DNA of 64,000 nucleotides from an uncultured Planctomycetaceae bacterium. GTDB lineage: Bacteria > Planctomycetota > Planctomycetia > Pirellulales > UBA1268. Shown one piece after another: positions 3,101 through 48,047 of this stretch. Numbering within the stretch: position 1 is the stretch's first letter; each line of letters begins with the position of its first letter. The notes beneath the pieces are model-generated. The model saw nothing but the letters and a program-made list of their open reading frames with translations, ran no database searches and was not told the DNA's origin. The translations under genes and the position numbers were made by a program. The stretch spans positions 1 to 64,000 of the forward strand of contig CAISJI010000142.1 in the NCBI GenBank assembly GCA_903885565.1, written 5' to 3'.

Positions 3101-3988
3101 TCATTCTCCAATAATGTCTACTCGCGTATTCTCGATAACTCGCCCGCCGGCGTGGCCATAAGCCTCGAAGTGCCCGTGAAGTCCGGATCCACGGACTTCG
3201 TGTGCGCCAAACCGGACCTGCCGCAGCCCGTCGGCAGAGATATACCTTCCCGTTCCCGGCGACAACTCCAGATAACCGGACCCAAGATACTTGGCCGCTG
3301 CATCGAGAAACCCTGTCTGTCCGATCCGGCCTCCCACGAACTCTGGAGCCCTTCCGCCAACGTTACCAGTAATTCCTCCACGGGCGGCCGCTACCGCGGC
3401 GTTGTCAACGCTGCCCGCCGCCCGTGCCGCACCTCGCGCCACATCCGCCAATTCATCCGCCGACCTCACGGCAGCACCAGCGATTCGCGTGAGTCCCTTG
3501 AGTCCGACCTTGCCTCCCGGAATCAGCCCCGCGCCGATGCCAGCGGCGGCAACCATCCGGTTAGCTGGTCTGTCGGCGACGTAGTCGTAGGCGGTGACAA
3601 ACTCAACGAGCGATAGAACGGAGCCGACCACCGGCAAAAGTCCCATCCCGAGCGAGGCGGCGTCGCGGATCCCAAACTCCGAGGCTGACTGCTGTGCAGA
3701 CTCGTCTCCGGTTGTCGTTGCGTTTCCAGTCCCACTCCCAACTGAGCTCCCACCACTTGTGGCCGGCAGAAAGCCATTGCCGGCTGTCACGTTTCCAAGG
3801 GGCTGCCCGGCCTGTGAAGGCCCGGCTGAGATAGTCGAGGGCATCTCTTCAGATCCGGCGGCGGGAACTGCGCAGATGATTCCCACGCCTACCACCAGCG
3901 GCACGGCGATCCGCGTAACGCTAGCCTTAAGCCTCGTGACACAACTCTGGCCGAACGTTGGCTCGTTTGGATTCTTGGCTGGGTTCAT
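3101..3988 (-). CDS. Secreted polymorphic toxin 2 (same front half as toxin 1, different tail)
   Basis: 295 residues from the ATG at 3988 (MNPAKNPNEPTFGQ). The hydrophobic export segment, Gly/Ser linker and pre-toxin region match toxin 1 nearly throughout, to about residue 195. The tail then reads GGITGNVGGRAPEFVGG, FLDAAAKYLGSGYLELSPGT, GRYISADGLRQVRFGAHE and LHGHFEAYGHAGGRV, ending VDIIGE. The GYxEL...GRYIS...HE...HGHFE pattern is one I know from RHS and other polymorphic toxins and suggests a small RNase-like or related fold with histidines in the active site, but I cannot name the family. The immunity gene starts one base after its stop. Upstream of the ATG the frame equivalent to the toxin 1 extension is broken by a frameshift, which supports the ATG chosen here for both copies. 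Confidence 0.75.
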   Translation of the reverse strand: MNPAKNPNEPTFGQSCVTRLKASVTRIAVPLVVGVGIICAVPAAGSEEMPSTISAGPSQAGQPLGNVTAGNGFLPATSGGSSVGSGTGNATTTGDESAQQSASEFGIRDAASLGMGLLPVVGSVLSLVEFVTAYDYVADRPANRMVAAAGIGAGLIPGGKVGLKGLTRIAGAAVRSADELADVARGAARAAGSVDNAAVAAARGGITGNVGGRAPEFVGGRIGQTGFLDAAAKYLGSGYLELSPGTGRYISADGLRQVRFGAHEVRGSGLHGHFEAYGHAGGRVIENTRVDIIGE

Positions 3989-4250
3989 TGTTCGCAACCC
4001 TCGGGCCCTTCCAAGGATGACTGGTCAGTTTTTTTGCTGCCGGGGGCCGCGGGAACGTCATTCTTCCCCGCCTGCGCCAACGAATCAACCTGCGCTGCAA
4101 GGCGCGGATACGCCGTAGATCGCGTGCTCAAGCGGAGATTTTCCGGTTGAACGATCCCCAAACACCTCGGTGCGGTGCCCCCCTCGGAAATTACCAATCT
4201 GCCGCCAACCTGTCAAAAAACCGGTCTGTGGGTGATTGAGCTGGGCGGGC
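3394..4250. repeat. Direct repeat copy 2 (front half of toxin gene plus leader)
   Basis: Partner of the repeat at 1035-1891, same orientation, 857 bases, with scattered substitutions and a few small indels that lie mostly in the untranslated leader. In both copies the leader ends with a matching frame RPAQSPTD...RLA followed by a stop, then toxin translation begins about 200 bases further on. Confidence 0.85.
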
Positions 4251-14658: not shown

Positions 14659-15633
14659 CTACGCAGTGGCTGCACCGGGCTCGAGAAACTTCCCCATCCG
14701 GCGGAACTTTTCGTAGCGGCCGGCCACCAGGGCGGCCGGCGGTTGGGCGACCAGCTCACGGAGCGTGCGCACCAGATAGTTCTTCAGCCGACTGGCCGTC
14801 TGCCGGGGATCGCGATGCGCGCCACCCGGCGGTTCCTCGATCACCGCATCGACCACACCAAACGACTTCAGGTCGTGCGATCGCATCCGCAGCGCCCGGG
14901 CCGCCTCGGCCTTGTGGTCGGCGCTCTTCCAGAGAATCCCTGCGCAGCCTTCCGGGCTGATCACGCTGTAGTAGGCATGCTCCAGAATGGCCACCCGGTC
15001 GCCGACGCCGATGCCCAGCGCCCCTCCGGAGCCCCCCTCGCCGATCACCGTGCAGACGACCGGCACCGGCAGCGTCGCCATGAGGAACATGCTTTCGGCG
15101 ATCACCTGGGCCTGGCCGCGTTCCTCAGCCCCCACGCCTGGATAGGCTCCGGGGGTATCGATCAGGCAGATCACCGGCAGTCCAAACTTGGCCGCCAGCC
15201 GCATCTTGCCCATCGCCTTGCGGTAGCCCTCCGGGTGGGCGCAGCCGAAATGACAGGCTTGGCGTTCGGTCAGCGTTTTTCCTTTTTGATGACCAATCAC
15301 CAGCACCTTGTGCCGATCGAGCTTGGCAAACCCGGTGAGCATCGCCGGATCGTCGCCAAACGACTTGTCGCCGTGCAGTTCCACGAATTCGTCAAACAGC
15401 AGCGAAAGATAGTCGCTCGTCTTGGGGCGGTCTGGATGGCGGGCAACCTCCACGGTCTGCCAGGGATCGAGGCTGCCAAAAATCCTTTTCTGAACCTCGA
15501 CCACCTCGCGTTTGAGCCGGCGGAGCTCCTCCTGCTGCTGGGCGCCCAGCGGCGCCGACTCAAGGGCCGAAATCCGATCCTCGATCTCGTAAATCGGCTT
15601 TTCCAGCGGCAGGCGATGCAGACCACGCGACAT
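14659..15633 (-). CDS. accA: Acetyl-CoA carboxylase carboxyltransferase subunit alpha
   Basis: 324 residues from ATG 15633, typical AccA length. Works with AccD to move the carboxyl group from biotin carrier protein to acetyl-CoA, the first step of fatty-acid synthesis. Visible features are the N-terminal coiled coil (PIYEIEDRISALE to LKREVVEVQKRIF), HPDRPKTSDYLS, GDKSFGDDPAMLTG, the CoA-binding region FGCAHPEGYRKA and LIDTPGAYPGVGAEERGQ, and the oxyanion-hole glycines VIGEGGSGGALGIG followed by YYSVISPEGCAGILWK. The 5' region carries leader element A. The AccD subunit is not in this window. Confidence 0.95.
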   Translation of the reverse strand: MSRGLHRLPLEKPIYEIEDRISALESAPLGAQQQEELRRLKREVVEVQKRIFGSLDPWQTVEVARHPDRPKTSDYLSLLFDEFVELHGDKSFGDDPAMLTGFAKLDRHKVLVIGHQKGKTLTERQACHFGCAHPEGYRKAMGKMRLAAKFGLPVICLIDTPGAYPGVGAEERGQAQVIAESMFLMATLPVPVVCTVIGEGGSGGALGIGVGDRVAILEHAYYSVISPEGCAGILWKSADHKAEAARALRMRSHDLKSFGVVDAVIEEPPGGAHRDPRQTASRLKNYLVRTLRELVAQPPAALVAGRYEKFRRMGKFLEPGAATA

Positions 15634-15768
15634 GGGAACGGTTCCGACGGGAGGCGGATGCAGGAAGATTCTCAGGCGGCGGAAGAAAGCCTCCACAGCC
15701 CTGACGAAAAGAGGATTGTCCCACGCGCCCAGAAGCCGCGTCAATTCGAAATCATTTGCCTATCAGGA

Positions 15769-15844
15769 TGTGGATACAGTGCCGTATCGCTGGATGCGAT
15801 GTGGTCTGGCTTCCATCCTCAGGGGCATGGAGGACTTTTTCCAC
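15769..15844 (-). promoter_or_regulatory. Leader element A upstream of accA (A-rich motif plus hairpin with TGGAT loop)
   Basis: On the minus strand: GTGGAAAAAGTCCTCCATG (15844-15826), a spacer, then a hairpin whose plus-strand form is GTATCGC-TGGAT-GCGATGT (7 pairs including two G-U if transcribed), then ACTGTATCCACA (15780-15769). The same arrangement with a different stem sequence and longer spacer occurs at 26578-26685. It lies between the kinase stop and the accA start, about 135-210 bases before the accA ATG. Could be a structured leader RNA, a protein-binding site, or a small repetitive element. Confidence 0.5.
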
Positions 15845-15856
15845 GGGCAGCCAGAT

Positions 15857-16708
15857 TCATGATCCGTGGGGATCCCGCTCCAAAAACCGAATGCGGCGCA
15901 GCTGCTGCACCACGTCCTGCATCGTGGCGGGACGCTGGGCCGGCTGCTTGGCCATCATCTGCCTCAGCAGCCGCGACGCCTCGGCGGTCACCGCCGGATT
16001 GAGCGCATCGACCGCCGGTGGTGGCGCTGTGATGTGCTTGTTGAGCAGGTCGTTGGTGTGGGTGGCGGTGAAGGGAGGCCGGCCCCCGAGGAGTTCGAAG
16101 ATCAGGCAGCCGAGCGAGTAGATGTCGGCCCGGCCATCGACAGGCTGGCCGCGGATCTGCTCCGGAGGCATGTAGCTGGGAGAGCCCTGCGCCGGTCGGT
16201 GGGGACGCAGGATACGGGAGAACCATCCCGGCATGCGGGTGGCTATGGCGAGATCGATCAACACGATCTGCCCATCGGGGGCTCCGAGCACGTTGTCTGG
16301 TTTGACATCGCGGTGCACCCAGCCGCGCTGGTGCATGTGGGCGAGGGCTGAGGCCATGGCAACACTCCAGGCCTGGGCATGCTGGAGGACCGCTGCGTGG
16401 TCGGTGACAATCTGTCGCTTGAGGTTTGGGAACGGACAGAAATCCATCACCAAGTAGGGCAGACCTTTCGACTCTCCCAGCCGGTCGATGCGGATGATCG
16501 ACGGGTGGTGGACCGCGCGGGCCACGTGGAGTTCGTGCTGCAGTTGCCTGCGCTGCGAGCGGTCGCGGGCCGCCTCCGGCACCACCACCTTCACGGCGAC
16601 ATGTTTTCCGGAGTCGTTCTCACGTGCCTCCCACACCTCGCACAGCTTACCGCTGCCGAGTTGCTTGGTGAGGGTCAGGCCGCCGAGATGTTCTGGGATG
16701 TGAGTCAT
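15857..16708 (-). CDS. Small soluble Ser/Thr protein kinase with atypical DFG motif
   Basis: 283 residues, kinase domain only, no membrane anchor. Hanks-type motifs: G-loop LGSGKLCEVWEA (residues 18-29), Lys40 in HVAVKVV, Glu59, HRDVKPDN (132-139, catalytic Asp134), APE-like MPPEQIRG, and DIYSLGCLIFELLGG. The metal-binding DFG is DLA (IDLAIATR, Asp152), so the Asp is retained and activity is plausible. Its ATG overlaps the truA stop as ATGA, so it is translated with a tRNA-modification gene; substrates cannot be deduced. Planctomycetes have many such kinases. Confidence 0.9.
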   Translation of the reverse strand: MTHIPEHLGGLTLTKQLGSGKLCEVWEARENDSGKHVAVKVVVPEAARDRSQRRQLQHELHVARAVHHPSIIRIDRLGESKGLPYLVMDFCPFPNLKRQIVTDHAAVLQHAQAWSVAMASALAHMHQRGWVHRDVKPDNVLGAPDGQIVLIDLAIATRMPGWFSRILRPHRPAQGSPSYMPPEQIRGQPVDGRADIYSLGCLIFELLGGRPPFTATHTNDLLNKHITAPPPAVDALNPAVTAEASRLLRQMMAKQPAQRPATMQDVVQQLRRIRFLERDPHGS

Positions 16709-17532
16709 GGTGAAATCTCATCATACCGTGCGTGGCCAGAGCGATCCGGCGGAGGTGTGCGCCTGCGATTCGGATCGAGTTCGATCGACACCAGCACCAG
16801 CCCCTCCGGGGGCGCGGTCGGGCCGGCAGCGGGGCGGTGCCGGGCGGCAAGCACCTCTGTCAGCCAGTGCGGCTGACGTTTGCCCGAACCCACCATCACG
16901 AGTGATCCCGCGATGATCCGCACCATATTGTAAAGGAACCCGTTTCCCTCGACCTCGATCCACACTTCTGAATCGGGCACGTCATCCTGGCCCGGGGGCC
17001 GGCGCACATCCAGCCGATGGATGGTGCGCACCTTCGACAGCCGCGTGGAGGGAACGGTCTCGAAGCTGGTGAAGTCGTGCTCGCCCAGAAGGTGGTTTGC
17101 CGCCGCCTGCATGGCTGGCGCGTCGAGCCTCGATCTCCAGCGCCACACCAGGTTTCGGGAGAGCACGGGGCGCCAGGGGGCGTCGTGGATGCGATAGCGG
17201 TAGAATTTGCGAACCGCCGCCCACACCGGATCGAACTCGGCCGACACCTCAAAGCCAGAGAGCACCGTGACGTCGGGGGGTAGATTGGCATTGATCGCGT
17301 TGACCCACACCCCAGCCTCGAGGTCGCTCCGGCTGGTGAAAGCCACCACCTGCCCAAGGGCATGGACGCCGGAATCGGTGCGGCTCGAGCCGCGTGGCAG
17401 GATCTCCTCGCCGGTCACCTTCCGGATCGCCTCGGCGAGCACCCCCTGCACCGTGACCTGCCCGGGCTGCACCTGCCATCCGGAGAACCGCGTGCCCTCG
17501 TAGGCCACGCGCAGGCAGATCGAACGCGTCAT
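16705..17532 (-). CDS. truA: tRNA pseudouridine(38-40) synthase
   Basis: 275 residues from ATG 17532. Converts uridines 38-40 in the anticodon arm of many tRNAs to pseudouridine. SICLRVAYEGTRFSGWQVQP is the N-terminal signature, and SSRTDSGVHALGQVVAF contains the catalytic Asp (residue 53). KFYRYRIHDAPW and FLYNMVRIIAGSLVMVGSG are the conserved structural motifs of the family. The ATG overlaps the asd stop, and the kinase gene overlaps its own stop, so the three are translationally chained. Confidence 0.95.
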   Translation of the reverse strand: MTRSICLRVAYEGTRFSGWQVQPGQVTVQGVLAEAIRKVTGEEILPRGSSRTDSGVHALGQVVAFTSRSDLEAGVWVNAINANLPPDVTVLSGFEVSAEFDPVWAAVRKFYRYRIHDAPWRPVLSRNLVWRWRSRLDAPAMQAAANHLLGEHDFTSFETVPSTRLSKVRTIHRLDVRRPPGQDDVPDSEVWIEVEGNGFLYNMVRIIAGSLVMVGSGKRQPHWLTEVLAARHRPAAGPTAPPEGLVLVSIELDPNRRRTPPPDRSGHARYDEISP

Positions 17533-18569
17533 GCACGCACCGCTGGCCGCTCCCATGAGAGCTTGGCCGGATGGGCCACCAGATATTCCGCGATCTGCAC
17601 GGCGTTGGTGGCAGCCCCTTTCCGCAGGTTGTCGGAAACACACCACAGGGCGATGCCGGTGGGACTCGAGGCATCCTCGCGGATGCGGCCCACAAAGACA
17701 TCGTCGCTGCCGCTGCAGGTTCTGGGGAGCGGATAGAGCTTGGCGTCGAGGTCGTCCTCCACCACGATGCCCGGCGCCGCTGCCAGCAACCGGCGCACAT
17801 CGGCCACGGAGAGCTTCTTTTCCGTTTCGATCAAAATCGATTCGCTGTGGCAGTTGGCCACCGGCACCCGCACGCAGGTGGCGCACACGCCGATCGATTC
17901 ATCGCCAAGGATCTTGCGGGTCTCGTACACCATCTTCAGTTCTTCGCTGGTCGATCCACCGGGACGCGGCGAACCGATCTGGGGAATCAGATTGGCGGCG
18001 ATCAGATGGGGGAAAACGCTCTTGGTTTCCCCCTTCCCCGCCAGCCAGGCGGCAGTCCCCTGCTCCATCTCGCGCGAGGCCGCCAAGCCGCCACCGCTGA
18101 CTGCCTGGTAGGTGCTGACGATCACACGCCGCACGCGGGCCGCATCGTGGAGCGGCTTCATCACCATCACCATCTGGGTGGTCGAGCAGTTGGGGCTGGC
18201 GATGATGCCGGTGTGGGTGTCGATCGCCCCGGGGTTCACCTCGGGGATCACCAGTGGCACAGTGGGCTGCATCCGGAAGAAGCCGCTCTCGTCGACCACT
18301 ACCGTGCCCCGCGCCACCGCCCAGGGAACGAACTCCGCCGCGACTTCGTCAGGAGTGCTGCCGATAGCGATGGCGACCCCATCAAAGGATTCAGGCCGCA
18401 GCACCTCGACGTCAAAAGAAACGCCCCCCACCTCCATCGGCTTTCCGGCCGAACGCTCCGAGGCGAGCAGCTTGATGCGCCGGGCCGGAAACTTCCTGGC
18501 CAGCAGCATCTCCACGATGATTCTTCCCACGGCGCCCGTGGCGCCAACGACTGCAATCGTGTCGATCAT
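17529..18569 (-). CDS. asd: Aspartate-semialdehyde dehydrogenase
   Basis: 346 residues from ATG 18569. Reduces aspartyl phosphate to aspartate semialdehyde with NADPH, the branch point to lysine/diaminopimelate, threonine and methionine. The NADP-binding start is IAVVGATGAVGRIIVEML; the catalytic Cys128 is in IASPNCSTTQMVMV; YQAVSGGGLAASREME and the later substrate-binding block SSEELKMVYETRKILGDE are also conserved. A later cysteine, VCATCVRVPVANCHSES, matches the GTCVRVPV...H motif with the active-site His. ATGA overlaps join it to the membrane gene upstream and truA downstream. The frame stays open upstream through the HTTM gene, but that stretch is the other gene in a different frame. Confidence 0.95.
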   Translation of the reverse strand: MIDTIAVVGATGAVGRIIVEMLLARKFPARRIKLLASERSAGKPMEVGGVSFDVEVLRPESFDGVAIAIGSTPDEVAAEFVPWAVARGTVVVDESGFFRMQPTVPLVIPEVNPGAIDTHTGIIASPNCSTTQMVMVMKPLHDAARVRRVIVSTYQAVSGGGLAASREMEQGTAAWLAGKGETKSVFPHLIAANLIPQIGSPRPGGSTSEELKMVYETRKILGDESIGVCATCVRVPVANCHSESILIETEKKLSVADVRRLLAAAPGIVVEDDLDAKLYPLPRTCSGSDDVFVGRIREDASSPTGIALWCVSDNLRKGAATNAVQIAEYLVAHPAKLSWERPAVRA

Positions 18570-19552
18570 GCGAGGTTTTCCGAAATATCCTGAGGGGGAA
18601 CGGAACGGTTGAAACACCAGTTGAGCAGACTGCGGAACACGGGCGCGGGCACAAAGGACAGATTGGCGAGGATCATCGTCAGGCCGAATTCCATCATGCC
18701 CATCGCCACTCCGATCCCCAGATGCACCAGCACTCCCATCGCCAGCGCCAACCGGCGCGTGAGACGCGGCCAGACCAAGGCGGGATAGGAGAGCTCCCAG
18801 AAGAGCGTGCCGAGCGTGAGCGCATTGGTCAGCAGCGGATGGCTCGCCAGCCAGCGCAGATCGAGCGTGCGGTAGCGATCGTTGGCGACGGATCCCCACA
18901 GCGCCGTGCCCTCCCACCAACTCGCTCCCAGCAGCTTGCCGGCACCGGAGAAGAAATAGACGACGCAGAGGTGGATTTGGATCAGTCGCAGGCAGATGTT
19001 GGCCAGCACGGAGGGGCCTGTTCCATCCCGTCGCAGCCCCCACCGGCGGTCGAGCGACAGCACGGCGCCCGAGGGCCCCAGCGCCACGGGGATCAGCAGC
19101 ATGCCGAGAATGTCGTCGAAGCCGAACACATTCAGCGGAGCCCGATTGGAGGCGCTCAAGAATCCCACCAGGGCAAAAATCGCCGCCACGGGGGTGGCCA
19201 GGCCGAGCATCAGGCAGAGAGCCGCGACCAGCGTGATCGCCGCCAGCAGGTGGATGGCAGTGGTGGACGAGGTGAGAAAAAACCAACTCCATTGCCAGGG
19301 TTGGTCGTTCATCCGCCAGGTTTCCTCCGGCGGCAGCCAGGCGGAGGTGCCGAAGAAGGCGTCGGCATCAAGGAGCCACACCACACTCGACCAGGCGAGC
19401 AGCCCCCCTGCCCCAATGCGGATGATCGCCAGCGGCAGCGGGTCGGCCGGAGTGAACCAAAACATGTTCCAGGCGGTGGCCCAGGCAGCCAGCCACCCCT
19501 CCCCTGCCCTCCCCTGCGGGAGCTTTCCGACGCTGGTGTGTGGTGTGGTCAT
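18566..19552 (-). CDS. HTTM-domain membrane protein (gamma-carboxylase-like)
   Basis: 328 residues from ATG 19552. About eight hydrophobic helices. Features of the HTTM domain, which is also the membrane part of vitamin K-dependent gamma-carboxylase, are visible: PADPLPLAIIRIGAGGLLAW at the start, WSWFFLTSSTTAIHLLAAI, RAPLNVFGFDDILGMLLIP and RLIQIHLCVVYFFSGAGKLLG, then SWWEGTALWGSVAND. The lysine/histidine arrangement of true carboxylase sites cannot be confirmed by eye. It is translated right after its 205-residue partner (ATGA overlap), a pair I associate with planctomycetes, and before asd. Confidence 0.8.
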   Translation of the reverse strand: MTTPHTSVGKLPQGRAGEGWLAAWATAWNMFWFTPADPLPLAIIRIGAGGLLAWSSVVWLLDADAFFGTSAWLPPEETWRMNDQPWQWSWFFLTSSTTAIHLLAAITLVAALCLMLGLATPVAAIFALVGFLSASNRAPLNVFGFDDILGMLLIPVALGPSGAVLSLDRRWGLRRDGTGPSVLANICLRLIQIHLCVVYFFSGAGKLLGASWWEGTALWGSVANDRYRTLDLRWLASHPLLTNALTLGTLFWELSYPALVWPRLTRRLALAMGVLVHLGIGVAMGMMEFGLTMILANLSFVPAPVFRSLLNWCFNRSVPPQDISENLA

Positions 19553-20166
19553 GGCTGCCGGTCCCCGGCGAAGGCATAGGTTCCCAGGGGCGTGACGAGA
19601 TCCGCGCCGCGGGTGGAAGCGATCGATTCCTCGGGGGTGGGCAGATAGTGCTCCACCATCGATAGCTCCACCAGCCTCCCGCCGTGGCGGAGCAGCAGTT
19701 GCGCTGCGATGCCCTTCACCAGCGGCTGCCACTGTGGCTTGGCGGCATCGCGCACCGCCGGCGGCGCATCGGGCGCCGGCACGAGGGAGGCCACCTTCTC
19801 GCTGATCATGAACCGGCGGTGATAGAGCAGACGCGGCCGATCGGAATCTGGATCGGGCAGCGATCCTGTTTGCCACGATCCATCGGGGAGGGAAACGCGC
19901 CAGCGGATCGAATGGCCGGGGCCAGGATCGGGCGCAAAGAACCGGTAGCCGTGGCCCAGATAGAGGGCACCGATCAGGGGCCGCAGCGGCTGGATCAGGG
20001 CGCTTGCCAAGGCGCTGGCGGGTGGAGGGCCTGCCAACGGCGCGATGATCACAGCCAGCAGATAGCCCAGAATCAGCAGCGATGCTCCCCAGCGGGTGCT
20101 GCGATTCCAGATGCAGTCCTGGGTGCAGTTCCGGGGGGAGTCGGGGCGTGGCAATGGAGCGGGCAT
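19549..20166 (-). CDS. Membrane-anchored partner of the HTTM protein
   Basis: 205 residues. One hydrophobic segment near residues 28-46 (ASLLILGYLLAVIIAPLAG) after a basic start, then a soluble domain with LGHGYRFFAPDPGPGHSIRW, LLYHRRFMISEKVASLVP and YLPTPEESIASTRG. The GYRFFAPDPGPG stretch is conserved in planctomycete proteins found beside HTTM genes. It heads the five-gene block ending with the kinase. Most likely a periplasmic or membrane-surface subunit working with the HTTM protein; no catalytic motif is evident. Confidence 0.7.
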   Translation of the reverse strand: MPAPLPRPDSPRNCTQDCIWNRSTRWGASLLILGYLLAVIIAPLAGPPPASALASALIQPLRPLIGALYLGHGYRFFAPDPGPGHSIRWRVSLPDGSWQTGSLPDPDSDRPRLLYHRRFMISEKVASLVPAPDAPPAVRDAAKPQWQPLVKGIAAQLLLRHGGRLVELSMVEHYLPTPEESIASTRGADLVTPLGTYAFAGDRQP

Positions 20167-20274
20167 GGCCTGGGCCTGGGGCGCACTGGGGTGGCTCGGC
20201 AGAAGAGCCTATTGAAAGGGAATCACTGTAGCAGCCAGCGGAATTCTCCCGCCATGGAGGTTTTGGGTTGGCAT

Positions 20275-20310
20275 AAAAAAGCTCCCGCGCGGCACCTGCC
20301 GCGCGGGAGC
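20275..20310 (-). terminator. Rho-independent terminator of the TIGR03000 gene
   Basis: Perfect 14-base inverted repeat GCTCCCGCGCGGCA / TGCCGCGCGGGAGC with a 2-base centre (20281-20310), followed on the minus strand by six T (20280-20275). It begins 28 bases after the stop at 20339. The best intrinsic terminator in the window. Confidence 0.9.
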
Positions 20311-20338
20311 GATAGAAACGGGGGAATCAGCCCGTGGA

Positions 20339-21538
20339 TTACTTCAGCGAAACCGTGGCATCGGCCGACGCTGTGCGTGCAGCGGGATCGAGCGACAGTT
20401 CCACCGTGCCGCCAGCCACCAGATTGATGGTCTTGGAGACCACCTTCTCGCGGCCGTCGACCACCGTGGCCACGCGGATCTCATAGTTCTGCCACGTCTG
20501 GCCAGAACGCAGATTCGAGGTCTCGAACAGCCGGGTGGCCCCGGTGGAGGAGGTCTCGTTGCCAGCCAGCCACACCCGAGCATCGGCGGGGACGTGGAGG
20601 GTCAGGCTCGTCTTCTGCTTGGCAGACTCTTCGCCGAAGGTCACCGTCGACCGGCCGCCGGCCGAAAGCGTGACCTTCTTCATCTCTTCGCGGGCCGAGC
20701 CGTCGCGGTTGACGACCATCTTCACCACAAACTCGTAGTCCTTGTCGGCAGCCAGACCGCGCGACACGAAGCGACGGACGCCGCCGGTGGCCGCAGTCTT
20801 CTCGCCGTTGACAAACACCTGAGCATCGGCCGGCAGATTCACCACCAGCAGAGCGCTGTCGGCAGCCACCGGGGCTTCAATGAACGTCGACGAGGTGGGC
20901 GGAGCGACCACGCTGGAGGGCGTGCCGATCACTTCGTTGCCGTAGACGGTGGAGCCTTCGATCACGCGGCTGGTTTCCACCGGCACGCCGGAGGAGTAGC
21001 CCATGTCAACGTCGGAGGAATAGCCGCTGGAGTAGACCGTGGCGGGGGAGGAGTAGCCGCCGTAGGAACCGTAGCTGCCGGCACCACCATAGCTGCCACC
21101 GCCGTACGAGCCGCCGCCCGACGAACCACCGCCGTAGCTGCCGCCCGACGAACCACCGCTGGAGCCGCCTGACGAACCACCACCGTAGCTACCGCCGCTG
21201 GAGTGGGCCGAGTGCCGGTAGGCACGCATCGCCTTCTTGGCGGCATGGTGGCCACCAAAGGAGCCGTACGACGAGCCATACGATCCATAGGAGCCGTAGC
21301 TGCCACCGGAGGAGCCGCCGGCGCCGTAGCCGCCCGAGCTGCCGCCCGACGAGCCGCCGTAGGAACCACCCGAGGAGCCGCCCGAGCTTCCCCCCGAGGA
21401 ACCACCTGAGCTACCAGCGGAACCGTAGGCAGCGCGATAGCGATGGTTCCAGCCAGCATGCGCGTCGCAGGCTGTCGCCACGACCGCAATAAAAGTGACA
21501 ACGCCTGCAAATCTGCAGCAATGACGAAGGACCGACAT
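20339..21538 (-). CDS. Secreted Gly/Ser-repeat protein with TIGR03000 domains
   Basis: 399 residues from ATG 21538 with GGGAG nine bases upstream. Signal peptide: CCRFAGVVTFIAVVATA ending ACDAHA. Residues ~42-165 are an almost uninterrupted Gly/Ser/Tyr repeat (GGSSGGSSGGSYGG-type units). The C-terminal half holds two copies of a planctomycete-specific module (TIGR03000-like), each with a strand-rich LVVNLPADAQVFVNGEKTAA or LTLHVPADARVWLAGNETSS start, then RRFVSRGL/TRLFETSNL and a YEFVV/YEIRV strand. Probably a cell-surface or extracellular structural protein. Has its own promoter-like sequence and a strong terminator, so it is monocistronic. Confidence 0.85.
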   Translation of the reverse strand: MSVLRHCCRFAGVVTFIAVVATACDAHAGWNHRYRAAYGSAGSSGGSSGGSSGGSSGGSYGGSSGGSSGGYGAGGSSGGSYGSYGSYGSSYGSFGGHHAAKKAMRAYRHSAHSSGGSYGGGSSGGSSGGSSGGSYGGGSSGGGSYGGGSYGGAGSYGSYGGYSSPATVYSSGYSSDVDMGYSSGVPVETSRVIEGSTVYGNEVIGTPSSVVAPPTSSTFIEAPVAADSALLVVNLPADAQVFVNGEKTAATGGVRRFVSRGLAADKDYEFVVKMVVNRDGSAREEMKKVTLSAGGRSTVTFGEESAKQKTSLTLHVPADARVWLAGNETSSTGATRLFETSNLRSGQTWQNYEIRVATVVDGREKVVSKTINLVAGGTVELSLDPAARTASADATVSLK

Positions 21539-21626
21539 CAGTATCAATCTCCCTGAACGAGGTGGTGTGTGCCCATGCAGACGACGTCCGTCGACGAACG
21601 GACTGCGAACATGTGCCGATGAGCCA

Positions 21627-21654
21627 AACATAGTTTGCCGATCAAGCAAAGCAA
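21627..21654 (-). promoter_or_regulatory. Possible promoter of the TIGR03000 gene
   Basis: On the minus strand, TTGCTT (21654-21649), 16 bases, then TATGTT (21632-21627), about 90 bases before the ATG at 21538. Matches to the sigma70 consensus are moderate. Confidence 0.4.
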
Positions 21655-21877
21655 GCAGTCTAGGCAGAATGCGTAGAGTATGCCGTGGCCCCCACATTTC
21701 GAGCAACGAATCGGAGGAATAAAACGATTCTTCCGCCGCGAGATTCGGGCGGAAAAGCGCCGCCAGGCACCGCAGCGCCGAAAAAAGAGGCCGGAGGGGA
21801 GTTGCCTGAGCAGGCCTTCTCCGCTGGCAGGCTGACCGCTACACCCCGGTGGGGGGGAATAAGGGACCGTGGCCTGC

Positions 21878-21923
21878 CCCGCTGAAACAATTCCGGCGGT
21901 AACCGCCTCCGGAACCGAGCGGG
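21878..21923 (-). terminator. Nested hairpin after the HEAT-repeat gene
   Basis: Outer arms CCCGCT / AGCGGG enclose a second inverted repeat TTCCGG-CGGT / ACCG...CCGGAA with a small bulge. It starts 22 bases past the stop at 21945. There is no T-tract, so it is a probable but unproven terminator. Confidence 0.45.
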
Positions 21924-21944
21924 AATCGAACTCTTTCAGGGCCT

Positions 21945-24101
21945 TCAGGGGGTTGAAGGGGAGCCCTTGATCCGCCCCAGTGCCGCCTGGGCGGCCTTCC
22001 GTACCCCGTCGACCGGATCGTCTTCCGCAACCAGTTCCAGAATTGGTATGGCGCTGGCGGCCTTGGGCCCGATGTCGCCCAGAGCGACTGCGGCCTCCAA
22101 ACGCACCAGTTCAGCGTCGCCGCGGAGAGCCTTCCTGAGGAGCGGAACTGCCGTCTCGAAGCGTTCGGCCTTGGTCGGCTCAATCTTCAACAGCGCCCAG
22201 ACGGCAACGGTGGCCATCAGCGGGTCGTCTGAGGTGGAGAATGCCTGGAGAGCTTCCATTGCCGGTGCAGCGGCTGTGCCGATCCGCCCCAGAGCAAAGG
22301 CCGACGTATACCGCAGGCTGGCGGAATCGTCTGCCGCAACGGTCGGGTCAGTCAAGATTTTTTGCAGCGCCGGAACCGCCTCGGCTGCGTCCGGGCCGAT
22401 CGCAGCCAGGGCCACGGCGGCATCCCCACGGGCTTCAATCGTCCCCTCTCCCAGCGATTCGATCAGACCATCGACAGCCGGTTTCGAGGCCGCCCCAGCC
22501 GCGGCAAGCAATTGGGTGGCGACTGGCCGGAGAGCGGGATTAGCGAGCGCCCGTTCGAGCGCCGCGACCCCATTGCCTCCCAGCCGCGATAGCCCCGTGG
22601 CGGCACTCCCCCGCACACCTGGCACCGGGTCTTCCAGCATGGTCACAAACTTCTCAGCGAGCGCCTGCTCTTCGGTGTCATCGAGACTGCCCAGCAGATC
22701 GGTCAGGGCTGATACAGCACCGCTGCGGGTGTTGGCCCGGTCGCTGCTGAGGCCAGCCGAGAGCGTTTTGAAAGCGGCTCCCACCAGATCCTTGTTGTCG
22801 GGGTGGATGCGGGCCCGGGCCCAGGAGGCGATGGCCGCCAGAAAACCATCGGGATCGGCGGCGGCCTGTTCCAAGGCGGCATCAGCAGCCACGGCCCGGA
22901 TCTGTCCCAGCGAGTAGGCGGAGGCAAATCGCACCGCTCCCTCTGGGTCGGAGAGGTTTTTGATCAGAACTTCGGCCGCTTCCGCCGCCGGTGCGCCGAT
23001 GGCGCCCAAAGCGAGGATCGCCTGCATCCGCTCCTCAATGGCCCCCTGCTGGGCAGCTTCCTTGAGCAGCCCCACGGCCGGGGCGGCTGCCGGGCCGATC
23101 TCGGCCAGAGCCAGGCTGGCCCAGTAGCGAGCCTTCGGGTTTTTCAGCGATTCTGTGAGGAACGGCACCGCCGGGGCGCCGATCTCGGCGAGCGAATTGA
23201 TCGCCGGGAGGATCACTGACGGATCGGAGTCGGAGAGCCGCTCATTGAACAGCGGCACCAACACCTCAGGGGCCGGCCGGAGCGCGTTGAGTGCCAGCAG
23301 CGAGGCGCGGCGAACACGCGGATCAGGATGAACCGTGGTCGCCACCAGCCCCTTTGTGGCCGCCCCATAGGCGGCTGCATCGGCGGCCGGCAGCTCTGCG
23401 GTCGCCCGCCCGTCGTCATTCCGCACGGACCGGATCGCCGCCGCAGCCTGCGTGGCCACGATCGGATCGGCGTCACTGAGCAGGTCAACCAGTCGCGGGA
23501 GGGCTGCGAGGGCATCTTCCCCAATCCGGCCGAGCGCCCGGGCGGCATGCCAACGCACGCGGATGTTGTCGTCGAACGTGTATTTCAGAAGGTCGTCGAA
23601 GGCTCCACGGGCGTTTTGACCGAGCGCGGCGATCTCGTCGATCGCCTCCACCCGGGCATCCTCGTCGTCTGACGCCGCGAGGCGGTTTTGGAGGTCGGGG
23701 AGTGTCACGGCAAAGTGGTCGGTCGTCACGGCCGCAGGAGGCGCGGCGGCAGCGGCGGGAGATGGTTGCGGCGCAGCATTGGCTGGCGGGGCCAGCGTCA
23801 GGCTCTCTTCCGGCAGCGTCTTCTCGGCGACAAAACGGGGATCGACCGCCGGAGTGGCGGCGGGAGGTGTGGCTGCCGCGGGTTCGGCAGGTGTTGCCGG
23901 AGCGCCGTACGAGATCTCAGGCAGCTGGGCAGGAGCGGCCGCCGCCGGGGGATTGGAAGGTGGTTTGGAATTGGAACAGCCGCTTGAAGTCAGGCTGCCG
24001 ATCGTGGTCATGCCCAATACCGCGAAATGCAGTGCCGTCATGCCCACTGCCGCGCTGCTGCGCTGCCTCCACACGCCATCGACCCACGCCGCTTGCCTCA
24101 T
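21945..24101 (-). CDS. HEAT-repeat lipoprotein
   Basis: 718 residues from an ATG with GGGAG nine bases upstream. After a hydrophobic segment the lipobox is TSSGC (Cys about residue 42; in-frame ATG at 24041 is an alternative start). Residues ~45-130 are a Pro/Ala linker. The rest is about 14 tandem HEAT/PBS-lyase-like repeats of ~35-40 residues, recognisable by recurring D-A-R-V/DPIV...A-AALGxIGxxAxxAxPxL, for example WHAARALGRIGEDALAALP and ALGAIGAPAAEAAEVLIKN. Such superhelices are protein-binding scaffolds. A single-gene unit on the outer side of the membrane, divergent from the secreted protein at 24272. The partner is unknown. Confidence 0.85.
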   Translation of the reverse strand: MRQAAWVDGVWRQRSSAAVGMTALHFAVLGMTTIGSLTSSGCSNSKPPSNPPAAAAPAQLPEISYGAPATPAEPAAATPPAATPAVDPRFVAEKTLPEESLTLAPPANAAPQPSPAAAAAPPAAVTTDHFAVTLPDLQNRLAASDDEDARVEAIDEIAALGQNARGAFDDLLKYTFDDNIRVRWHAARALGRIGEDALAALPRLVDLLSDADPIVATQAAAAIRSVRNDDGRATAELPAADAAAYGAATKGLVATTVHPDPRVRRASLLALNALRPAPEVLVPLFNERLSDSDPSVILPAINSLAEIGAPAVPFLTESLKNPKARYWASLALAEIGPAAAPAVGLLKEAAQQGAIEERMQAILALGAIGAPAAEAAEVLIKNLSDPEGAVRFASAYSLGQIRAVAADAALEQAAADPDGFLAAIASWARARIHPDNKDLVGAAFKTLSAGLSSDRANTRSGAVSALTDLLGSLDDTEEQALAEKFVTMLEDPVPGVRGSAATGLSRLGGNGVAALERALANPALRPVATQLLAAAGAASKPAVDGLIESLGEGTIEARGDAAVALAAIGPDAAEAVPALQKILTDPTVAADDSASLRYTSAFALGRIGTAAAPAMEALQAFSTSDDPLMATVAVWALLKIEPTKAERFETAVPLLRKALRGDAELVRLEAAVALGDIGPKAASAIPILELVAEDDPVDGVRKAAQAALGRIKGSPSTP

Positions 24102-24200
24102 CTCAATATGCTCCCGGAAATGCAGGGTGGTAAGGAGTCAATGCCGGAGGGAATCTGCCTCCGGGGGGCGGGGAACCGGTGTCGCTCCCCGCAGAGCGGA

Positions 24201-24212
24201 AGAGTATACTCT
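24201..24212. promoter_or_regulatory. Palindrome AGAGTATACTCT in a divergent intergenic region
   Basis: A perfect 12-base palindrome containing TATACT, midway between the HEAT gene (start 24101, minus) and the secreted-protein gene (start 24272, plus). TATACT is a good -10 candidate for the plus strand, though the -35 region is weak; the symmetry also suits a dimeric regulator. Confidence 0.35.
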
Positions 24213-24271
24213 GGAGATCATTTCTCCCACTGGAGTTTTGCCCGGATCGTATTCGGGGAAACCGACCACCA

Positions 24272-24970
24272 ATGAGGATGGCCATGCGGTTGCATAAGAC
24301 TCTGTCCCTGGTTCAGGCTGCGGCCCCCCTGCTCTTCGCTGTGGGACTGCTCGGTTTTTCCGCCTCGCGTGTCGAAGCCCAATGGGGTGGGATGGGGTGG
24401 GGCTACGGCATGGGAGGGGGCTATGCTTCGACTGCCGAGCAGGGGGCAGCCTACGGGCTTTCCTCGGTGGTGCGCGCCGAAGGCTACACCAATCTGAAGA
24501 ATTCCGAGGCGGCGAAGAACTGGGAAGAGGCCAAGACCCAGGAGATTCAAAACCGCCAGCGGTGGACCGAAACCTATTTCGATATGCGCAAGACAAACAC
24601 CGAGGCTCGGACGGCCGAAGAGGGGCCGCGCGTCACGCGGGAGCAGGCTGTGCGACTGGCCCAGATGCAGGCACCCCGCCGGCTCACCTCCACCCAGCTC
24701 GATCCGGTCACCGGGCATATCGAATATCCGCTTGTGCTGACGTCGAATGTGTATAAGCCCTACCGCAGCGAGGTCGACAAGCTGTTTTCCGATCGCGCTT
24801 CCTCCGGGGGGAGCCTGCAGTACGAAGACTTCCAGCGCATTCAGGGCGTGGTGACGAACTGGACTGAATCGCTCAAGGAGCATGTCAAGGAGTATCCGGC
24901 CGGCGAGTATGGCAAGGCCCGCACATTTCTTGACAGTTTGGCCAACGAAGCGAAGTATCCCGCTGGCTAG
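24272..24970 (+). CDS. Small secreted protein of unknown function
   Basis: 232 residues from ATG 24272 (two more in-frame ATGs within four codons). Signal peptide: LVQAAAPLLFAVGLLGFSA ending VEAQ. A short Gly/Trp/Tyr-rich stretch (WGGMGWGYGMGGGY) follows, then an Ala/Glu-rich helical body with NLKNSEAAKNWEEAKTQEIQ, LTSTQLDPVTGHIEYPLVLT and YEDFQRIQGVVTNWTESLKE. No enzyme motif. The LDPVTGxIxYPLxL phrase recurs in planctomycete secreted proteins I know only as hypothetical. Probably periplasmic. Confidence 0.65.
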   Translation: MRMAMRLHKTLSLVQAAAPLLFAVGLLGFSASRVEAQWGGMGWGYGMGGGYASTAEQGAAYGLSSVVRAEGYTNLKNSEAAKNWEEAKTQEIQNRQRWTETYFDMRKTNTEARTAEEGPRVTREQAVRLAQMQAPRRLTSTQLDPVTGHIEYPLVLTSNVYKPYRSEVDKLFSDRASSGGSLQYEDFQRIQGVVTNWTESLKEHVKEYPAGEYGKARTFLDSLANEAKYPAG

Positions 24971-25095
24971 TGGCTCGTGGCGAGTGTTGTATTCGGCTGG
25001 CGTGAAGCTTGGGCTGGCGTGGAGAATTCGGCTGCGGGACGGCAAAAGTTTCGTCGCGTGCGCTCCTCAAGCGTTCGCCGATCCCTCCGCCTCCG

Positions 25096-26547
25096 TCACC
25101 CTCGAGCAGGCTGATTTGTATCCACAGCCTGTAAACCGGTCGCACGGAAGCGGAGGAGCAGCGGGATCGTGGCCAATCGCAACAGGCTCGAGGCCGCAAA
25201 GAGCGCGAAATAGGCTGTCTGGTCTTCTCCGAGGCTGCGCAGCAAGAGACCTCCCGCCGCGGCGCCGGCCACTGTGGCGATCGCCTGCCCGAGGTTGTAG
25301 GCGGTGACCACGCCGGTGCGTTCCCCGGGGGGTACAGCTGCAAAAAACAGCAGCGACATCGCCAGTTCGTAGCCCGCCCAACAGGTGCCGGCCAACACCT
25401 GCACGGCCATCAGATAGCCAATGTTGGCCGAGGGAATCCACAGCAGCGACAGCGGAATGATGGCCAGGCCGGCCCAGCCGAGCAGCCGGGCCGGCCCCAG
25501 CCTGGCCCCCAGCCTGCCGAGGCTCGGCAGCGCGAGCGCCTTGGCCAGAAAACTGGTCGCCACGATGAGCATGTAGGCTTCGTAGGAGAGGTGGAGTTCC
25601 CGCAGCATGTAGGGAGTGAAATAGGGGGCGGTGAATTGGCAGGCGAAGGCCACGGCCCAGAGATAGCAGACGAGCGTTCCGGAAGGGCTCCGCACCAAAG
25701 CTGTCAGCCGGGCCCAGAGGGGGGCGGCGCCGGGATCATCCTCAGCAGTCTCCCCCGCGAGGTTCTCCAGGCGTGCCGCTGGGGAAGGCTCATGCATCTT
25801 CTGGGTCGCATCGCCGGTAGGGAGAGCGTCGAAGCCGGGTGGCTTCAGTTCGCGGCAGATCGCCAGACACGCTGTGGAGACCAGCCGGCAGAGGCCCGCC
25901 AAGATGAACAGCGCCGCAAACGTGGCCAGCGTGACGCCGTGGGTCTGGCCCCATTGCAGGAGCAGGCCGCCGCTGACGAATCCCCCCAGCACACCAAACT
26001 GGCTGAGGCGGTGTCGATGAGCGAAGTAGGGGGTGCGCATCCGCTCCGGCACCAGCGTGCCCATCCAGGCATTCCAAGCCGGCACCCCTGCCATCCCGGC
26101 CGCCCAGTAGATGCTCACCGCCACGAGCAGTTCCCAGAGCTCCGCATGGCCGCGCAGTGCCCACCAGGCCAACGGGAGAAAGCTCAACGCCTGCACGACG
26201 GTGGACCACACAACCCAGCCCCGGTTGCTGCGCAGCCGGTGCACCACCAGGGGCGTCACCAACTGAAAGCAGGCTCCCGCCAGAACAGGCAGGCTGGCCA
26301 TCATCCCCGCCGCCACCGGCCCCAGCCCCAGTGCCAACGCAAAAGCAGGGATATACGTTTCCCCACAGCCCACCATCACGCTGTAGGCTGCGCCGTCGGC
26401 GGTGGAGGCCCACAGATCGCGGCGCAGATTGCCCCGGGGGAGCCATGGTCGCTGGGGCTGATCCGCGCCCGGAAGGCTCCGTTGGCTGCGGGAAGACCGG
26501 GGAAACCCGAGGCGTTTCCAGCGGTCGATCGAGTGGAAAAAGGTCAT
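25096..26547 (-). CDS. Major facilitator superfamily transporter
   Basis: About 483 residues from ATG 26547, which lies inside the upstream repeat element; an in-frame GTG at 26685 is possible but would encode the repeat itself. Twelve hydrophobic segments in two halves of six, with a central hydrophilic loop (PTGDATQKMHEPSPAARLEN region). Typical MFS start DLWASTADGAAYSVMVGCGE and loop motif SLGRLGARLGPARLLG. MFS carriers of this size move small solutes; substrate cannot be read. Note the 5' end: residues 1-25 (MTFFHSIDRWKRLGFP...) are encoded by the 63-base repeat, so the true start may be further in. Confidence 0.8.
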   Translation of the reverse strand: MTFFHSIDRWKRLGFPRSSRSQRSLPGADQPQRPWLPRGNLRRDLWASTADGAAYSVMVGCGETYIPAFALALGLGPVAAGMMASLPVLAGACFQLVTPLVVHRLRSNRGWVVWSTVVQALSFLPLAWWALRGHAELWELLVAVSIYWAAGMAGVPAWNAWMGTLVPERMRTPYFAHRHRLSQFGVLGGFVSGGLLLQWGQTHGVTLATFAALFILAGLCRLVSTACLAICRELKPPGFDALPTGDATQKMHEPSPAARLENLAGETAEDDPGAAPLWARLTALVRSPSGTLVCYLWAVAFACQFTAPYFTPYMLRELHLSYEAYMLIVATSFLAKALALPSLGRLGARLGPARLLGWAGLAIIPLSLLWIPSANIGYLMAVQVLAGTCWAGYELAMSLLFFAAVPPGERTGVVTAYNLGQAIATVAGAAAGGLLLRSLGEDQTAYFALFAASSLLRLATIPLLLRFRATGLQAVDTNQPARG

Positions 26548-26685
26548 GGAGGACTTTTTCCACAACAGCCAGCAGACTGTGGATACAGTGGTCCGCCGCT
26601 GGATGCGGCGGTGGTCGACCCAGGAAACCCTCGGCGTTTCCTGCGGTCGATCGAGTGGAAAGAGGTCATGAATGACTTTTTCCAC
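26501..26685. repeat. Tandem 63-base repeat with hairpin spacer (leader element B)
   Basis: Two 63-base units (26501-26563 and 26623-26685) begin GGAAACCC and end CTTTTTCCAC, differing at about ten positions, in the same orientation. The 59-base spacer contains TGTGGATACAGTG (26578-26590) and a perfect hairpin CCGCCGC-TGGAT-GCGGCGG (26593-26611). Each unit ends with the minus-strand motif GTGGAAAAAGTC followed by CTCCATGACC or ATTCATGACC. The arrangement matches element A upstream of accA. Units sit at the start of the MFS gene. Confidence 0.7.
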
Positions 26686-26737
26686 GGAAAGCTGGGGAGC
26701 TGGTTGGACAAGGGGGCGGAGGTCCGGAAAGGCGGCG

Positions 26738-47872: not shown

Positions 47873-48047
47873 CTGTCCGTCCGCACCCCAACCCTCCCCC
47901 GTGTAGCCGACCACCGGCACATGCCCCCTGCGCGGCACCCACTGGCGTTGCCAGGATCAACAACTTCCGCAGCCAGCGATGGCCGAATGTATGCACAGCC
48001 CGCGAGCAGGCTGTGACTGAGATCCCCCTTGGAGCAGGAATTCGTTC

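Follow-up and report, generated by a model that had tools for sequence, protein, structure and literature searches.

Bacterial miniature inverted-repeat transposable elements (MITEs) with internal hairpins are represented by ERIC, Correia/NEMIS, RUP and Nezha. The repeat analyzed here was recognized from two hairpins in a 64,000-nucleotide (nt) stretch of DNA (the window: positions 1 to 64,000 of contig CAISJI010000142.1, assembly GCA_903885565.1) from an uncultured Planctomycetaceae bacterium of the order Pirellulales, and it most probably represents a further MITE of this kind. It resembles the four families in size, abundance, inverted-repeat ends and secondary structure, and differs from them in sequence, host group and the insertion sequence (IS) with which it shares its ends, as well as in its fold, which consists of three short hairpins set apart from each other and not of a single long fold-back.

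Other described systems share some of these properties. REPINs (PMC3116915) and the GTAG/CGTC-tagged repetitive extragenic palindromic sequences (REPs; PMC3733652) are likewise hairpin-rich and dispersed; unlike REPs, which are described as 20-40 bp long with a tag at one end, the planctomycete repeat terminates in inverted repeats, is flanked by 4-bp duplications and shows no link to a Y1 transposase gene. Within the IS1182 family, stem-loop-replacing transposition has been reported for IS1272 of staphylococci, in a paper that cites others for palindrome-targeting members of the family (PMC5678879). IS1272, as presented there, and our MITE are alike in that IS1182-family mobility is tied to stem-loop DNA; however, IS1272 is reported to replace its target stem-loop, whereas the MITE makes a direct 4-bp duplication, and the targets of 97 copies showed no palindrome other than CTAG. 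The passages of a study of freshwater Planctomycetes that cover transposase numbers and intergenic spacers (PMC6461901) do not mention the present repeat, and full-text term searches of one literature collection gave, among the entries listed, no description of an IS1182 MITE of this type.

Our preferred explanation, to which we assign a probability of about 0.88, is that the hairpins belong to a non-autonomous MITE of about 130 nt (about 143 nt in a second size class), and that an IS1182-type DDE transposase binds its ends and moves it in trans. We consider this transposase the likely agent because the MITE ends match those of a 1.49-kb IS and because direct 4-bp repeats flank the insertions. 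In the proposed mechanism, the transposase would bind the 17-nt ends common to the IS and the MITE, and would cut the MITE out or copy it; the element would then be inserted at YTAR with duplication of 4 bp. The hairpins would be kept since pairing at the DNA level, as a cruciform or in a single strand, may aid the spread of the element itself, and not for the sake of an RNA product. A preliminary description of the two hairpins had proposed either a structured RNA or an element of a mobile repeat, and the copies, terminal repeats, target duplications and matching IS presented below strongly support the second proposal.

The observation from which that description started, the same loop and flank at two sites, was confirmed: TGTGGATACAGT occurs exactly at 15769-15780 and 26578-26589, followed on its 3' side at both sites by a hairpin with a TGGAT loop and with the stems previously described, flank and hairpin together spanning 15769-15802 and 26578-26611. 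Around both hairpins the shared sequence reaches 98-130 nt and includes one or two further hairpins and inverted-repeat ends. Further copies are numerous. The source genome (4.46 Mb in 279 contigs) contains 14 exact occurrences of TGTGGATACAGT, against none of the reversed control, and 12 of the 14 lie within elements that match R1, a covariance model built from 8 copies, at E<1e-5 (10 of the 12 further loci and both window copies; 8 of these 12 elements served to build R1). The remaining two sites are a left terminus only (L010; 9.9 bits, E 0.11) and a locus with no match at E<=1 (L011). R1 has at least 149 matches in the source genome (149 of the 150 candidates scored, from 1,735 first-look candidates), and structure-independent searches for the ends gave 152 left-end matches with up to 2 mismatches (control 0) and 252 right-end matches with up to 3 mismatches (reversed control 1). 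The repeat is present in this genome as a few hundred copies or fragments. A set of 119 copies, the better-scoring part of the at least 149, was obtained from 126 matches by removing 7 that were weak, overlapping, short or cut.

The repeat is concentrated in the same bacterial family, where 64 of 72 genomes, representing 12 of 12 genera, have R1 matches. Across the order, 64 of 346 genomes match at E<=1e-6, and 63 of these belong to the family; outside it, one of 274 genomes of the order was matched (E 8.6e-7), and a separate search of 39 genomes gave weak matches at E<=0.01 in two non-family genomes (G024, G026). All per-genome counts are lower bounds, based on 88, 47 and 9 scored candidates per genome in the 39-genome, family and order searches, respectively. 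Seven of the eight matchless family genomes belong to one genus, g3, in which 7 of the 10 sampled genomes are matchless while G012, G081 and G082 have 8-26 matches; the repeat may have been lost or gained within this genus. Identical 130-nt copies occur in two genera (L044 in G019, contig C79; L210 in G060, contig C94), which may reflect either contamination or recent transfer.

Full copies consist, in order, of CTAG-CAGGCTGTGGATAAAGT, hairpin 1 (for example CATCGC-TGGAT-GCGATG or CGCCGC-NGGAT-GCGGCG), hairpin 2 (for example GTCGACCGTGGAAACCCTCGGCGTTTCCACCGGTCGAC), hairpin 3 (laid out as GTGGAAAAAGG.CATGGATG.CTTTTTCCAC) and GGACAG-CTAG. The loops GGAT, CCTCGGC and ATGGATG-like are largely unchanged across copies. 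The terminal inverted repeats are imperfect, the left consensus CAGGCTGTGGATAAAGT and the reverse complement of the right, CTGTCCGTGGAAAAAGT, being equal at 13 of 17 positions; the "leader motif" of the preliminary description makes up the left repeat's inner half. Among the 119 source-genome copies read, 65 measure 129-132 nt and 40 measure 140-150 nt; in the first-aligned copies of the longer class (L002, L004), the extra 13 nt fall within hairpin 3. The element is short and has no transposase gene, its interior not having been scanned separately for coding capacity, whereas the partner transposase comprises 448 codons. A separate leader hairpin, CTGT-GGAT-ACAG, was considered and rejected: the self-complementary TACAG form is found in 11 of the 119 copies versus TAAAG in 58, with 21 unread, and the hairpin appeared in a first fold of 8 copies because those copies had been chosen by the TACAG motif. 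At L059:3129-3178 (contig C230 of the source genome, G000, about 59.63-59.68 kb), a minimal version of about 50 bp carries both termini with only the hairpin 3 loop between them.

The flanks of the copies bear the signature of insertion with target duplication. This test used the 98 of the 119 copies in which both ends are conserved, 21 being left out for poor ends. Identical flanking tetranucleotides were found in 34 of the 98, compared with 14.0 (standard deviation, sd, 2.8) under shuffled pairing, and identical non-palindromic pairs in 15, compared with 3.1 (sd 1.6); in neither case were any of 10,000 shuffles as high. Non-palindromic reverse-complement pairs numbered 5, versus 2.8 in shuffles (1,416 of 10,000 as high). 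Agreement beyond chance is thus seen in direct and not in inverted orientation, which is the behavior of a duplicated target and not of a tetranucleotide belonging to the inverted repeat. These 4-bp repeats are of YTAR/CTAG type. Tandem copies have a single tetranucleotide in common (L007/L015, and in the window), as expected if insertion went into an existing duplication. A second dispersed repeat also starts with CTAG and reads CTAG-AGCGCATCCGACTTACGTGTAGCG...GGGGCGGCAAAAG (right flank of L024; left flanks of L022 and L102; L125:313, plus; L156:363, plus); three copies of the hairpin MITE are located directly in its CTAG.

An IS with the same ends exists in related genomes. Two PF01609 (DDE_Tnp_1) matches in relatives, L077 and L078, have ends of the form CTAG-CAG.CCGTGGCC, and scanning named genomes with L078 gave 16 loci, nine of which have both ends recognizable, about 1.1-1.5 kb apart. 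In L191, a 1.49-kb IS in a family member, the left end is CAGGCTGTGGATAAAGT, the same as the MITE consensus. Of the 17 left-end positions, 17 equal this consensus in L191 and also in L061, a piece from the source genome, 16 in L202, 15 in L192 and 13 in L193; at the right ends of four IS copies, 13-17 of 20 positions equal the MITE consensus. The transposase of L191, a full-length reading frame (L191:2710-4053), has as its best NCBIfam match NF033551, IS1182 (182.5 bits, E 1.4e-53). Identical flanking tetranucleotides were seen in six of nine IS copies (CTAG four times, CTAA and TTAG), two of the six being non-palindromic. These planctomycete IS1182-type ISs (L191/L227, L193, L202 and L198-L201) are like the MITE in their terminal inverted repeats, which in L191 are identical at all 17 left-end nt, and in their 4-bp YTAR/CTAG duplications; unlike them, the MITE lacks a transposase gene, and its interior, composed of three hairpins, is different. 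From these shared ends we infer that this IS supplies the transposase of the MITE. In L062, two end-like matches enclose 1.35 kb that at first looked like an element; this was discarded as a chance arrangement, the 374-codon frame on its other strand being flavoprotein reductase-like by eye.

Several observations weigh against this explanation. The 182.5 bits of the transposase fall below the curated NCBIfam cut-off of 270 for IS1182. Three of the nine IS copies, and 64 of the 98 MITE copies, those in the window included, lack identical flanking tetranucleotides. The transposase was matched in only 21 of the 72 family genomes, in many cases as fragments, versus 64 of 72 for the MITE. No intact IS1182 transposase was found in the assembled source genome, in which PF01609 and PF13546 (IS701) gave no match, other transposase families besides Y1_Tnp not having been searched for. 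The missing gene is plausibly an assembly gap because traces of the IS are present: C235:1-141 contains its first 140 nt, 91.4% identical to L191 and stopped by the contig end, and C245:7258-7861 is a relic in which two pieces of the transposase are 65 and 69% identical and end-like matches are separated by about 0.7 kb (L237). In addition, R1 had no match at E<=1e-5 in seven IS loci (L190-L195, L202), and therefore, as judged by this model search rather than by alignment, the MITE interior does not evidently derive from this IS by deletion. The G-U counts of two hairpins, given below with the RNA alternative, belong with these points.

That the stems change while keeping their pairing, as the preliminary description held from two sites, is also true of a much broader sample. 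For this analysis, 31 matches in relatives, less one cut and one partial, provided 29 copies, and a table of 29 copies from 29 genomes and 8 genera was assembled with the window copy as its first row and with L210 (identical to L044) left out. In this table, 92.8% of 1,129 cells are paired versus 84.1% in shuffles, 17 of 39 pairs show changes on both sides versus 10.0, and 90 cells have both-side changes versus 29.0, sliding the partners giving at most 22. One of five pairing measures, the number of further pair types, was not above the shuffles (35 versus 32.8, a value equaled or exceeded in 98 of 500 shuffles), and in 18 of the 29 copies the bases of the outermost pair of hairpin 1 do not pair.

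Because related sequences can exceed simple shuffles, a tree-aware null was also applied, with 300 alignments simulated under a general time-reversible model with gamma-distributed rates (GTR+G) on the inferred tree and scored by the G-statistic with average-product correction. The alignment comprised 102 distinct copies of 125-133 nt (28 from relatives), out of 148 (119 from the source genome and 29 from relatives); the null was fitted on this same alignment and assumes no recombination between copies. Three column pairs, 101-110, 63-71 and 57-77, reached E<=0.05, and all are stem pairs; stem pairs 31-43, 50-85 and 30-44 followed at E<0.1, and 56-78 at 0.29. Seven of the eight best column pairs are stem pairs, spread over all three hairpins, the exceptions being 30-43 within the top eight and 31-44 in ninth place, both off register within hairpin 1. 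With three pairs at the usual threshold, we regard the covariation as real with moderate confidence; further copies and covarying pairs, the absence of which would have counted against the preliminary description, were both found. RNAalifold gave a poor consensus of -8.6 kcal/mol for the mixed 102-copy alignment, since decayed copies break pairs, and this weighs against a perfectly kept structure. The three-hairpin layout is retained across the aligned copies, which come from 8 genera.

A more specific, and more doubtful, proposal is that the array of hairpins serves a function in the transposon. Tentatively, IS1182-type transposition might work on, or be strongly favored by, folded DNA, and the element might have evolved under selection for pairing in the three stems during its spread through the family. 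A role for folded DNA in movement is reasonable by analogy, because IS1272 has been reported to replace target stem-loops. If the proposal is true, the core of this DDE-transposase MITE would be structure-coded, and the system would be akin in spirit to the stem-loop-replacing transposition reported for IS1272; if pairing is needed for transposition, the copies in the source genome and in other genera of the family would constitute a natural mutation series for structure-dependent movement by a DDE transposase.

The alternatives concern either the cause of the pairing or the identity of the mobile system. Paired changes could arise without selection in the same MITE, through template-directed correction of imperfect palindromes at replication, which could keep hairpins perfect in a fast-copied neutral repeat. 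The many source-genome copies with decayed stems are consistent with such a process, but on its own it does not preserve the loops, and the arrangement of three hairpins recurs in all 8 aligned genera; we consider it unlikely, while giving it appreciable weight.

A dispersed structured RNA, either a small RNA or a cis-regulatory element in which selection on a transcript maintains the hairpins, would account for covarying stems and conserved loops in copies from 29 genomes and 8 genera. In Rfam, however, the window matched only a tRNA, and five copies searched at E<=5 matched no family, one match reaching 18.6 bits against a threshold of 80. A selected transcript should tolerate G-U pairs more than A-C mismatches, and in the 102 copies the two are nearly equal in hairpin 1 (G-U 6, A-C 5, the first pair not counted) and hairpin 3 (12 and 10). 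Hairpin 2 of these copies has 69 G-U versus 27 A-C (94 versus 61 in shuffles), and hairpin 3 of the 29-genome set has 5 versus 1, both of which would fit an RNA; in that set, the counts are 0 and 0 for hairpin 1 and 20 and 10 for hairpin 2. Flanking genes were assigned around 107 copies with a crude codon model. Where both genes point in the same direction, 14 pairs read with the element and 16 against it, and the other pairs are divergent (10), convergent (9) or undecided on at least one side (58). In raw counts, right-hand genes lean towards the minus strand (38 versus 27), as an RNA reading might have it, and left-hand genes show no such lean (36 plus, 35 minus). Such an RNA would not be expected to have terminal repeats or target duplications. 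The suggestion of a structured RNA has no support in an Rfam family, a clear gene-orientation bias or a consistent excess of G-U over A-C, and we judge it improbable; the G-U and orientation data together weakly favor a DNA-level cause. The MITE accounts for a large set of hairpins without an Rfam family in these planctomycete genomes, and covarying stems alone are no proof of RNA, as hundreds of mobile copies can yield covariation with a possible DNA-level cause.

Movement as a REP or REPIN by a REP-associated tyrosine transposase (RAYT, of the Y1/HUH type) acting on folded single-stranded DNA would suit a hairpin-rich repeat, and the source genome has exactly one Y1_Tnp match. The gene (L072:1204-1878; C247:15535-15873 of G000) has a REP-associated tyrosine transposase as its best NCBIfam match, at 61.4 bits, below the cut-off of 80. 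This origin is nevertheless very improbable. Direct 4-bp target duplications are present, and to our knowledge HUH enzymes do not make them; no R1 match at E<=0.01 lies within 1.5 kb of the Y1_Tnp gene; and the repeat does not correlate with Y1_Tnp, which was found in 14 of 26 family genomes, the source included, and was not found in G019, G010, G021 and G015, with at least 88, 46, 23 and 18 copies, respectively, these genomes all being incomplete. An IS630/Tc1-type MITE that duplicates TA and prefers CTAG as its target could explain CTAG as the commonest flank (41 of 98 on the left, 26 of 98 on the right), but it can be set aside with near certainty, since the flank agreement sits in the outer bases 1 and 4 (z 6.3 and 5.1) and is weak in the inner two (z 1.9 each), identical pairs without TA exist (CTGG/CTGG, CCAG/CCAG), and an IS1182-type element has the same ends (IS630 transposases not having been searched for).

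Returning to the window and to the probable IS1182-type MITE, its copies there comprise the following features.

26566..26695, plus strand: full-length MITE copy; 145.8 bits with R1, second-best in the genome.
26569..26572, no strand: left flanking tetranucleotide CCAG, which the upstream tandem copy shares at its right end.
26573..26589, plus strand: left terminal inverted repeat CAGACTGTGGATACAGT, from consensus comparison, containing the "leader motif".
26593..26611, plus strand: hairpin 1 of the full-length copy, CCGCCGC-TGGAT-GCGGCGG, with 7 Watson-Crick pairs.
26614..26651, plus strand: hairpin 2 of the full-length copy, with the conserved CCTCGGC loop.
26655..26685, plus strand: hairpin 3 of the full-length copy, with arms GTGGAAAGAG and CTTTTTCCAC.
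26675..26691, plus strand: right terminal inverted repeat ACTTTTTCCACGGAAAG, from consensus comparison.
26449..26572, plus strand: decayed tandem copy upstream of the full-length copy; 56 bits, with hairpins 2 and 3 recognizable at 26495-26563.
15757..15854, plus strand: decayed 98-nt copy without hairpin 2; 38.4 bits.
15784..15802, plus strand: hairpin 1 of the 98-nt copy, GTATCGC-TGGAT-GCGATGT, with 5 Watson-Crick and 2 G-U pairs.
15834..15850, plus strand: right terminal repeat of the 98-nt copy, followed by CCAG at 15851-15854.

The full-length copy is one of the 8 used to build R1. The 3' arm of its hairpin 3 also forms the inner portion of the right terminal repeat, and its right flank at 26692-26695 is CTGG, so that it has no intact direct target duplication. 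It is flanked by the frame of a major facilitator superfamily (MFS) transporter on the minus strand and by an epimerase/DUF1731 gene on the plus strand, from 26868; as listed, the MFS frame (25096-26685) extends through the copy, and the true MFS start may differ. The 98-nt copy sits exactly between the frames of accA (14659-15744, minus) and a kinase-like gene (15857-16708, minus). A weak R1 match on the minus strand at 47880-48009 (24.1 bits, E 2e-4) is either a decayed copy or due to chance. Elsewhere in the window, long direct repeats at 79-229, 1030-1891 and 3388-4249, 81-93% identical and spaced by about 2,358 bp, perhaps reflect a tandem gene duplication.

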